DNA of 64,000 nucleotides, from the NCBI GenBank assembly GCA_030052745.1, contig JANBVO010000001.1:1736001-1800000 (forward strand). Reading direction: 5' to 3'. Both the position numbers and the translations under genes were made by a program. Source of the DNA: Pleurostoma richardsiae. Lineage: Eukaryota; Ascomycota; Sordariomycetes; Calosphaeriales; Pleurostomataceae. Below, in pieces: positions 788-58,000 of this stretch. The notes under the pieces are model-generated. The model was not told where the DNA came from, ran no database searches, and worked only from the letters and a program-made list of their open reading frames with translations. How positions within the stretch are numbered: the stretch's first letter is position 1; the number at the start of each line of letters is the position of its first letter.

Positions 788-1290
788 CTTGAAGACGGCG
801 CTGGCGCGACTTTGAAAAGATGAGAAAGGCGAGATGGACCGATGTCTTGAGGGTTAAGGTGTTCCCTGGAGGAAGCCTGTTGCGCAAGAGGGCCCTGTGG
901 AGAGTGTCGGGCTTCTGCCTTCTGCAAGGACGAAGACGGGTTTGTAAGAGCAGGAATGGCGTCTCGAGAGCGAGCTTGCAGGTATTCAGGTGTTTAGCTG
1001 ACTGCGGGGTCCCTCCTAAGGATGGATGGTGGGGCAATGTCGGTGACGGCAGCAGCTGCCAGCTGGAGAGTTGCGGGACGGAAGGGCCGTTCCAGTGCAA
1101 AAGCGCTGTCCGTTAATAAGGAAGGACCAGAAGTCAAGAGCGCCCAGCACTTTGCCAAGATGCCACAATCACCAACAGCACATTGATATGCCTTGGAGAC
1201 AAATTCCAAGCCATGATGGAGGATCGGGAAGGAAAGCCTGATTCCTATTACACAAACAAGCAAAAAAGAAAAAAGTCCAAAAAACTATTT
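788..1290. other. Intergenic, rub1 upstream region
   Basis: This is upstream of rub1 and downstream of tRNA-Gly (both minus strand). Open frames here show no family resemblance. The only recognisable elements are the A-runs next to the tRNA, listed separately as its terminator. Confidence 0.6.
1262..1284 (-). terminator. Pol III terminator of tRNA-Gly
   Basis: Three A6 runs on the + strand (1279-1284, 1269-1274 and 1262-1267) read as T6 runs on the minus strand. They begin 7 bases after the tRNA 3' end. T4 or longer is the standard RNA polymerase III termination signal. Confidence 0.85.
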
Positions 1291-1361
1291 GCGATCATCG
1301 GGAGTCGAACCCGACCCTGCTGCTTGGAAGGCAGCAATACTAACCGCTATACTATGACCGC
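1291..1361 (-). tRNA. tRNA-Gly (anticodon TCC)
   Basis: The 71-nt minus-strand gene folds as a standard cloverleaf. The 7-bp acceptor stem pairs GCGGTCA with TGATCGC (one G-T wobble). The D-arm is TAGCGGTTA-like (A box), the anticodon stem is CTGC/GCAG with loop CTTCCAA (anticodon TCC), and the T-arm contains GGTTCGACTCC (B box). There is no intron, and T-runs follow directly. It decodes GGA, and GGG by wobble. Confidence 0.95.
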
Positions 1362-47321: not shown

Positions 47322-47402
47322 GGCAACATGGCCGAGTGGTTAAGGCGAGAGACTAGAAATCTCTTGGGTTCGCCCGCGTCAGTTCGAATCTGGCTGTTGT
47401 CG
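47322..47402 (+). tRNA. tRNA-Ser (anticodon AGA)
   Basis: Class II tRNA. The 7-bp acceptor pairs GGCAACA with TGTTGTC (one G-T pair), with discriminator G. The D-arm TGGCCGAGTGGTTAAGGC is the A box. The anticodon stem is GAGA/TCTC with loop CTAGAAA (anticodon AGA). A long variable arm (TTGGGTTCGCCCGC) is typical of Ser. The T-arm contains AGTTCGAATCT (B box). No intron. Decodes TCT, and by inosine TCC and TCA. Confidence 0.96.
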
Positions 47403-55059: not shown

Positions 55060-58000
55060 TTATCCCAGACTCATCTTCCCCTTATGCAGGGCTCTGATGG
55101 CGGCGAGATCAGTTGCACCTGGGTACCAGAACTGATTCTCGATCCCGAGCCCAACTCTGCCTGCTCGGTAATACTCTGGCGCTCTAGTCCTGCGCCACGT
55201 GTAGCCGAGGAAGGCATTCTTCTTGCGCAGGTCCATCACGGTGCCTCTGGTGTTCTTGTCTCTCAACAGTCTGTCTCTGGGGCGCTTGCGTTCCTTCTTG
55301 CCGTAGCAGCGCACGACCTGCTTCAGGAGCTCACGCTCCGTGGGCTGCAGTGACGGTTCCGCGTTGATCTGGCCTTCCATGTTGCGGAGCCGAACGGAGT
55401 CGTACGGGGTTGCAATCCAGGCCTTTATCGTACCCTGGACAGCGGGTGGGAATTCCCGAAGAGATTCGGCAAGCTCAGCCTCACGGGCAAGCTTCTTCTC
55501 GAGAGACGGTGAGGTCAGCTGTCCGAGCGTCAGCGGCTCACCTCCAGCGACTATGGCCCCGGTTGCATTGACTACGACGGAAGTCCCCGGCATGGTCGAC
55601 TGGCCGTTTTCGTCCTCTTCTTCCTCTGAATCGGACCAGTCACTGATGGGCTCTTCTTCGTCGAAGTAATGAGAGTCGTCAACGGAGTGAATATGGGGCA
55701 CGAACGGGGGTTCAAGCTGTATCAAGCGGTCCCATGGAACTCCCTTGAACCATTTATGAGCTTTGATATCCTCCGCGTCATATGGGTAAACGTATCGTCC
55801 GCTGAAGTCGACCACCGCTTTGCTGTTACTCGGGGTCGAAGACGGAGAATGGCGCTGCTGCATGTCTTTGAAACGATACCGTCTCGAACAGAGCCGATCT
55901 TCCTTCTCCTGAAGAAGCGAGGCGATGAGATGCTGGCATCGATGGGATATCATCGGTCGGGAAGGGATGGTGAAAGTCACCCTGTGGTTCTGATGGACAG
56001 ACAACATGTCAGCGGTCATCCAAACCGCCATGCCTGGAGTAATTGTCTACTAACCAGGATATTCTGCTTTGTCTGATGGCGGCCCTCTTCGGCGAGAAAC
56101 GGGGTGTGCCCGTACAGACACTCATACAGGATAACGCCGATGCTCCACTAGTCGCACCGGCCGTCGTATGGTTTCCCCTGGATGACCTCAGGGGCCATGT
56201 ACTGACTAGTTCCGACGACAGAAGTCGCAGACGTGCGTACTCCGCACCTGTTCCGCCACTGCAGCAGTGGCTCATCATCAGAGGGATCTTTCTTGTCGTG
56301 CCTTTCAAGTCCGGAGTTGATACCCGATATCCATTTCAGGCAAGCTGATGGACGCTCTTTTTTGTCGGTCTCATCCCCTTCGACGTTCAGCTTGAGCTTC
56401 TGGATCAGCGAATAGCGTTGGCTGTTGTAGTACGCAGTGTCGTGAGACCAGTGTCCATTAAAGGCAAGGCCAAAGTCTGAGATCTTGAGATGGCCAGAAG
56501 CGGAGATGAGGAAGTTGTCGGGCTTTATGTCGCGGTGGATAATTTTGAGGGCATGCGCCTCCTCCACACATACAACCATCTCTGCGATGTAGAATCTGGC
56601 GACAGTCTCGTGGAGGATGTTCTCTCTGATCAGGAGACCCAGGAAGTCGCCGCCTGGCATGTATTCCATGACGAGATAGAGGTTGCAGGCGTCCTGGAAA
56701 CTGGCAACCAGGGGAACAATCCTGTGAAGCTCCGAATCAGCACATCCAATTCTCAACAGATGCCTTGTGACAGAACCTACCAGCGGGAGCCCTCTGAGTT
56801 GACTAGAAAATCACGCTCTGCACGTAGGTGGCCTTCCTGACTCGTCCGAAGCATTGCCGATTTGCGAATGACCTTCATGGCATACACCTGCTTTGTCGGG
56901 ACGCTGTCATCTACTGTCCGCTTGTCTCGAACGAGGCGGACCACGCCAAAACTCCCTTTCCCAAGTATTCTGACCACGTTATAGTCGTCACAGGAGTGCT
57001 CAGTCTTCTGAGATGTAACAGCCTGGTTTGTCTGACGCGTCATGATGCTGCGAACCTTCATCACTCGTACCTGTCGGAGATGATCTGACTCTTGCCGATA
57101 GAAAGTCTTTCTGACGTTCTCCTTCTGGGTAACTGTGAGACTCTCTCCAAGATGGTAGAGCTCGCCCTCCATCAGACGGCGTCGCAGGGACCTAGGAGGA
57201 GGGTATGAAAGGGCTTCGTGGTAGTACGTCTCAAGATATATCTTGGCTGCGGCCGCCCTCTCAACGGTGACCACGGTTGGGGTGACCTGGGATTCATCGA
57301 CGGTCTCTTCGATGGTGGTCAGAGTGCCGTCAGGGCTTGAACGATTCGCAAGGTTGCGACGCTTGGTTGGTCCTCGCTTCTCCCCTGAGCTGGTGCCTTT
57401 GCTCGAGGATAACTTTGAGCTCAGGGATGTCTTTGCAGTAGACTCTGGCTGCTTTGGCGGCTTGCCGCTATGACTATTTGAAGTACTAGAGTGGCCATTC
57501 AAGCTGGAGGAGCTCTCTGTGGAGACGGTGAACTGTGCAGGAGAACTCTCCATCGACCGCAGCGATGGTCGTGACTTGGGAGTACTGCGATGAACCACTG
57601 TAGGCTCCACTGACAGTCCGAAGACAGAGGAAGACATTTGTCTGAGGCCGCTCCCCAGGGAGGGCTTGCCTCTGTGACTGGACGATGACCCTTGCGGCGG
57701 ACGAGTCGATGTCCCATTAAGTGAATCGCTCAGCCCTACACCACATGTCAGGATTAGACAGCTGGCCACGGCCTCGGCGAGGGTTTCATCATGGAAGTTA
57801 CTGTTCTGATGGCCTGTCAGCCCCCTGAGCGCCGATAGGAGCTTAGATCCCTTGCGTTGAACCTTCGACGGAGGAGAGGACGATGGTCTGGGTCTCGGTC
57901 TGTGTGACAGGGAGTCTGGAGTTGCCGATCGGTTGTCCGTGTCCAAGAACAAGCCGATATCGACCCGGAGATTGTCTTGCGCAGAGGCTCTCCTCTTCAT
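55060..58000 (-). CDS. puk1: PUK1-like AGC/NDR kinase with in-frame TAG in the kinase domain
   Basis: Ser/Thr kinase of the AGC/NDR group, best explained as the orthologue of Fusarium PUK1 (Neurospora stk-21), needed for ascospore formation. Exons are 58000-56781, 56721-56055 and 55989-55060 (introns 59 and 65 nt), 938 codons if read through. A Ser-rich N-terminal ~300 residues precede the kinase domain: P-loop GKGSFGVV (347-354), Lys376 (YAMKV), HRD471IKPDN, SD489FGLAF, an activation-segment insert, and MAPEVIQGKPYDGRCD ending at 597. Codon 598 is TAG (56150-56148) where kinases of this family have the first Trp of DWWSIG; codon 599 is TGG. Everything downstream (WSIGVILYECLYGHTPF, then 310 further codons including stop) is intact and spliced in phase. 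In Fusarium PUK1 the same Trp pair is encoded as tandem UAG codons that A-to-I editing converts to UGG in perithecia. A pseudogene or sequencing error are the alternatives. Confidence 0.9.

Follow-up and report, generated by a model that had tools for sequence, protein, structure and literature searches.

Why would a protein kinase gene that is otherwise intact carry an in-frame stop codon at a conserved Trp? The question is raised by a gene on the reverse strand of the window analysed here, a 64,000-nucleotide stretch of Pleurostoma richardsiae (assembly GCA_030052745.1, contig JANBVO010000001.1, positions 1,736,001 to 1,800,000), which also holds tRNA genes at 1290-1361 (-) and 47322-47402 (+). 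Stops at the corresponding Trp pair of Fusarium graminearum PUK1 and Neurospora crassa stk-21 are reported to be corrected to Trp in perithecia (PMC4817773), as an earlier note on this DNA had set out in proposing an editing site here.

The interrupted kinase gene

Splicing of the three exons in Table 1 gives a coding sequence (CDS) of 2817 nt, 938 codons followed by TAA, and both introns have GT-AG ends. The earlier note had described this reading (938 codons in three exons, TAG at codon 598 and then TGG, with neither a second internal stop nor a frameshift), and re-splicing confirms its coordinates as well as its account: the only stops are codon 598 (TAG) and codon 939, and there are no frameshifts. 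The codons around the stop are GGC CGG TGC GAC TAG TGG AGC ATC GGC, and the candidate edited A is CDS nucleotide 1793 (A1793; window 56149, T on the forward strand). The product has a Pkinase domain, its best match among solved structures is CBK1 (E 1.1e-54), and its best named matches are Sordariomycete kinase-like proteins, with Leotiomycete ones also among the best 120 of 3478 proteins found. It is an NDR/AGC-type kinase with a C-terminal extension, conserved in Sordariomycetes, and it presents the pattern expected of a premature-stop-correction site, a TAG at a conserved Trp with the remaining frame intact.

Table 1. Parts of the kinase gene and of its surroundings at the stop, in window positions
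Feature	Position	Strand	Basis
Exon 1, PUK1/STK-21-like NDR-type kinase, ATG at 58000	56781..58000	-	reading and homologues
Intron 1, 59 nt, GTAGGT..CACAG, CTRAY branch-point-like motif present	56722..56780	-	
Exon 2, contains the in-frame TAG	56055..56721	-	
Intron 2, 65 nt, GTTAGT..ATCAG, CTRAY motif present	55990..56054	-	
Exon 3 up to TAA, including the AGC-kinase C-terminal part	55060..55989	-	
In-frame TAG, codon 598, first Trp of the homologues' DWWSIG motif	56148..56150	-	
TGG, codon 599, the pair's intact second Trp	56145..56147	-	
Predicted RNA hairpin, 8-bp stem, UAG within the loop	56136..56161	-	fold prediction
93-nt false intron of the deposited gene model, GTACGC..GACTAG	56148..56240	-	model alignment

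Fungal A-to-I sites are reported to prefer U at position -1, A or G at +1, and A or G at +3 and +4 (PMC4817773); in CUAGUGGA, A1793 has U at -1 and G at +1, +3 and +4, in agreement with each preference. Folding of the flanking mRNA, which the earlier note had suggested, places the A in a predicted hairpin loop, the most stable local one of the CDS. With 15, 20, 30, 40 or 100 nt on either side, all 500 sampled structures place A1793 in a hairpin loop, as do 492 of 500 with 60 nt; the 33-nt window at A1793 ranks first in stability among the 927 of the CDS (tied with that of the following codon), and A1793 has the lowest local energy among its 76 UA sites. Hairpin membership by itself says little, since 36 of the 76 UA sites are predicted to lie in such loops, but the predicted folds put A1793, as expected of an edited A, in a loop that is also stable. 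Random synonymous codings were as stable with P of 0.0014, 0.0044, 0.010, 0.028 and 0.028 for flanks of 4, 5, 6, 8 and 10 codons, respectively; in a control of 103 windows with fewer draws, 3 reached P 0.02 or less.

The sequence beyond the stop is well kept. Near-invariant residues are retained at 67 of 69 positions after it and 124 of 125 before it, and eight homologues used as a yardstick keep 61-67 of 66-68 and 121-125 of 125 or 126, respectively. In a branch test on a fixed tree of 41 chosen rows, with residues 561-640 excluded, the terminal branch of P. richardsiae measures 0.694 before the stop and 0.464 after it, and in descending order this after/before ratio of 0.67 ranks 36th among the 41 rows, for which the median is 1.28. 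The downstream half is no more drifted than the upstream half. A long-decayed pseudogene is rejected, because the residues after the stop are kept and the terminal branch is not lengthened; a very recent null mutation would show the same picture of constraint.

The position of the stop can also be set against chance. With Trp assumed at codon 598 as in the homologues, and codons 2-938 covered, the kinase has 344 single-base routes to a stop (in 285 codons), among which 71 are transitions and 42 of these lead to TAG; exactly one of the 71 possible transition stops is the TAG observed. Since a single one of the 71 falls on the published editing codon, a chance coincidence is unlikely.

The Trp pair in homologues and other kinases

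The homologue set is the best 120 of the 3478 proteins found and includes the species' own deposited protein (P0001); orders were assigned from organism names. At alignment column 598 a residue is present in 51 of these 120, and it is Trp in all 51, which bears out the earlier note in placing the TAG at the first Trp of the DWWSIG-type motif; the other 69 have a gap. Gaps peak at codons 596-598; in conserved columns lying over 40 residues from the site the median is 1 gap and the maximum 71, the latter at the start Met. Within the same best 120 of 3478, Trp 598 is kept by the Leotiomycetes (24/24), Diaporthales (7/7), Magnaporthales (6/6) and Ophiostomatales (1/1) and in the rows without an organism name (5/5); it is kept in 3 of 11 models from Sordariales and one Chaetosphaeriales, 1 of 2 from Coniochaetales, 1 of 6 from Hypocreales, 3 of 56 from Xylariales in the wide sense, and 0 of 1 from both Glomerellales and Calosphaeriales. 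Xylariales contribute 53 of the 69 models that lack the codon.

How these models are interrupted is informative. Twenty of the 69 restart precisely with Trp 599, as would happen if an AG at the end of codon 598 had been taken for a splice acceptor, 7 restart at residue 600 (P0106 ambiguously so) and 42 elsewhere; one further model (P0025) keeps both Trp and loses the stretch that follows. This suggests a TAG at the first or second Trp in many of the gapped models, and the share without codon 598 (69 of 120) suggests that a stop at the PUK1 Trp pair is widespread. The alignment of orthologues that the earlier note had called for is clear as to Trp wherever a residue is present, and the TAG or TGG state across Sordariomycetes is suggested from gaps in models. 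A-to-I editing is reported to be common in Sordariomycetes and not to have been found in the Leotiomycete Botrytis cinerea (PMC11156358, PMC11087585), and the order-by-order pattern of codon loss fits this range. If such stops are edited, automatic annotation can hide the sites, and many deposited proteins may lack a regulatory switch.

A FastTree tree was built from 118 rows, in which P0001, P0089 and P0111 were left out and the window sequence stands in place of P0001. The Trp and lost states need 11 changes on this tree, which does not separate ancestral retention of the stop from its new gain. The nearest rows all have Trp, namely the Diaporthales (7/7 in the alignment, 6 of them in the tree), P0060 and P0090, and the stop may therefore be young in P. 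richardsiae. As to placement, P0060 and P0090 fall with Diaporthales, P0057 and P0072 inside the Leotiomycete side, and P0006 with Sordariales.

Other kinases of the genome served as a control. A single internal stop occurs in 28 of the 141 Pkinase matches, the window kinase among them. Twenty of the other 27 were read by eye (6 TAG, 6 TAA and 8 TGA), and in 19 the stop looks intronic or lies at the edge of the match. The remaining one, a kinase-like gene at C60:327449-328003, has TAG where 119 of its 120 best homologues (159 found) have Trp and one has a gap. Sampled folds put its A in a hairpin loop at a frequency of 0.098 with 30 nt on either side and 0.692 with 20 nt, and the gene may be either a pseudogene or a second case of editing.

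Candidate editing machinery and mating type

Among the genes of this genome are those for Tad2-like (HAE) and Tad3-like (HAV) deaminases, so called here after their motifs, and three DUF726 genes, one of which, on contig C2, is the Ame1 candidate; over the part searched it is 100% identical to a deposited P. richardsiae protein (P0121). Feng et al. report that MV500-501 is required for editing in F. graminearum and that KN is the ancestral state (PMC11087585). The candidate has MV, as do all 31 named Sordariomycete rows, among which its own deposited copy is counted, and the other 89 Ame1 rows have KN (61), KS (18), MV (6, in rows without an organism name) or other residues (4). From the MV/KN pattern, we infer that this column corresponds to MV500-501; the contact residues E546 and R548 line up only on the assumption of a one-residue deletion in between. 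Going by motifs and alignment, all three components of the editing system are encoded: Tad2, Tad3 and an Ame1 that carries MV where it would contact Tad3. Of the other DUF726 genes, one (C82:536900-542500) has RN where the candidate has MV, and a further one lies at C78:268000-274000. The OTT_1508-like deaminase family, to which the virus-induced OLD editors belong, has 12 matches in the genome. A DNA-methylase search for RID gave a strong match that by eye resembles DIM-2 and a second, weak one.

P. richardsiae is described as one of three asexual species moved to Pleurostoma in 2015 (PMC4689446). Its genome holds SLA2-type, MAT1-2-1-type HMG, APN2-, COX13- and APC5-type genes in the usual order (C60:239000-258400), with an intron within the HMG box of the MAT1-2-1-type gene (C60:248449-249360). 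Judged by its gene content, the MAT1-2 locus is intact-looking and the strain appears to be MAT1-2. A SPO11-type domain has one match in the genome, and a search of the genome with PF04769 (MAT1-1-1) gave no match, but neither did its controls, so that this absence carries little weight. A strain of one mating type requiring a partner would fit, and if the stop is edited as in relatives, a sexual cycle probably persists in P. richardsiae.

Rival readings and known systems

The deposited P. richardsiae kinase (765 residues), identical to the window translation at 765 of 765 aligned residues, begins later than the 938-codon reading and differs from it at more than one place. Around the stop it treats codons 568-598 (31 codons) as a 93-nt intron, the last three bases of which are the TAG, and the APE motif is lost with them. 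Were this a genuine intron, the TAG would simply be its end and the protein would lack the stretch, and both its GT..AG ends and its length, a multiple of 3, suit such a reading. However, the stretch codes for the activation segment and the APE region, present in homologues, and its donor (GTACGC) and missing CTRAY motif are unlike the two accepted introns, both of which have CTRAY. Moreover, a comparable false intron in F. graminearum PUK1, the annotation of which had the same kind of error according to Liu et al. (PMC4817773), was disproved via cDNA (PMC4817773, PMC7306014). As homologues encode the region and the intron signals are poor, the intron reading is rejected and keeps hardly any credence. 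A sequencing or assembly error, with TGG as the true genomic codon, is very improbable too: the base rests on the one assembly, but the TAG coincides with the published editing codon (PMC4817773), and the 68 further models without codon 598 suggest a stop that recurs in independent assemblies.

There is also little to recommend the idea that the stop is passed otherwise, by plain readthrough or by a virus-induced OLD (OTT_1508-like) deaminase. TAG TGG does not match the CTA or CARYYA readthrough contexts. The genome's 12 OTT_1508_deam matches would be a source of OLD proteins, which share the preference for U at -1 and a hairpin loop, but their reported targets are mainly cognate ZAO zinc-finger genes (PMC12754623), and none of the 12 lies on the contig of the kinase. 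Recent loss of function is unlikely, though less easily dismissed, and would mean that in an asexual lineage the kinase became dispensable and a G-to-A null allele arose by chance at the editing codon. The listing of P. richardsiae as asexual (PMC4689446), the Trp of its nearest relatives in the tree, and the kinase-like gene with TAG at an invariant Trp and a weaker loop prediction all speak for it. Against it, there is no further stop or frameshift and no excess divergence after the stop; the mutation must have struck the exact published editing codon, one of 71 transition stops; the hairpin at A1793 is the strongest in the CDS; and the genome has a MAT1-2 locus, a SPO11-type domain and machinery of the editing type.

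Position, neighbouring bases, hairpin loop, an editing-type Ame1, Tad2- and Tad3-like genes and the absence of excess divergence make a PUK1-like correction site the best reading. We put at roughly 0.8 the probability that the kinase is the PUK1/STK-21 counterpart and the TAG at codon 598 a premature-stop-correction site (UAG to UIG), and we infer that A1793 is edited in P. richardsiae. In sexual tissue, Tad2-Tad3-Ame1 would deaminate A1793 within the hairpin loop, and UIG would be decoded as UGG (Trp), giving the full 938-aa kinase; elsewhere, the product would stop at 597 aa, lack most of the kinase C-lobe and be inactive. The stop would thus act as a lock opened in fruiting bodies. Counting against this reading, individual editing sites are often not conserved between species. 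In the protoperithecia of Sordaria macrospora, only nine of the orthologues of 240 stop-loss or puk1-like edited F. graminearum genes were reported to be edited too (PMC5381528), and M. oryzae and C. paspali are reported to have TGG TGG at the PUK1 Trp pair (PMC4817773). As to the confinement of editing to fruiting bodies, rare A-to-I events in hyphae are reported for F. graminearum (PMC11169179).

For a species described as asexual, such an editing lock predicts a sexual cycle that has escaped observation, and if the stop is edited, the PUK1 site extends to Calosphaeriales and an in-frame TAG at a conserved Trp could be used as a genome-only sign of a hidden sexual cycle. We are evenly divided on the joint claim that in much of Sordariomycetes the PUK1 Trp pair serves as a recurrent "sex lock" dependent on editing and that P. 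richardsiae reproduces sexually. Within that claim, the PUK1 stop, an intact-looking MAT1-2 and an editing-type Ame1 together are what would make this supposedly asexual opportunistic mould a sexual one. The case is new in its order, Calosphaeriales, in coming from a species described as asexual that has an intact-looking MAT1-2, and in pointing, through annotation gaps, to a widespread stop; searches of open-licence literature gave no report of such a site for this order, and none of the titles and abstract openings among their results mentions an edited gene of Pleurostoma.

Among known systems, the OLD-ZAO pairs of N. crassa and CHE1 of F. graminearum are alike in a UAG-to-Trp change in a hairpin loop with U at -1, but their targets are zinc-finger genes, edited by virus-induced OLD deaminases or in hyphae (CHE1) (PMC11169179, PMC12754623). 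OLD-ZAO targets adjoin an OLD gene, whereas here the predicted target is a kinase, on a contig that holds none of the 12 OTT_1508_deam matches. F. graminearum PUK1 has stops at the Trp pair of a kinase, a falsely split gene model and Trp restored in perithecia, as reported, but it belongs to Hypocreales and its stops are a tandem UAGUAG with two edited sites (PMC4817773); its record (FGRRES_01058) is not among the best 120 of 3478 homologues. In Fusarium verticillioides FVEG_01191, one stop of the Trp pair is edited in perithecia, but it is the second codon (UGGUAG) (PMC4817773). The closest likeness in codon state is to N. crassa stk-21 (NCU03242), where the pair reads UAGUGG, with the first codon alone a stop, and is edited in perithecia (PMC4817773); it differs in belonging to Sordariales and in that editing is shown there by RNA and predicted in P. 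richardsiae. The N. crassa match (P0036) aligns and groups with Sordariales, and its predicted first-Trp codon is 524 versus the 543 implied by A1628, perhaps because N. crassa models differ upstream; the kinase is accordingly a candidate one-to-one orthologue of NCU03242. What the earlier note had proposed is supported as to a PUK1-like editing site, which position, context, predicted loop and machinery fit, and fails where it suggested that the single stop may mark an "intermediate or partly resolved state": UAGUGG in N. crassa and UGGUAG in F. verticillioides are published single-stop states (PMC4817773), and with a first-codon-only stop being the state of N. crassa, the intermediate idea is rejected as not needed.
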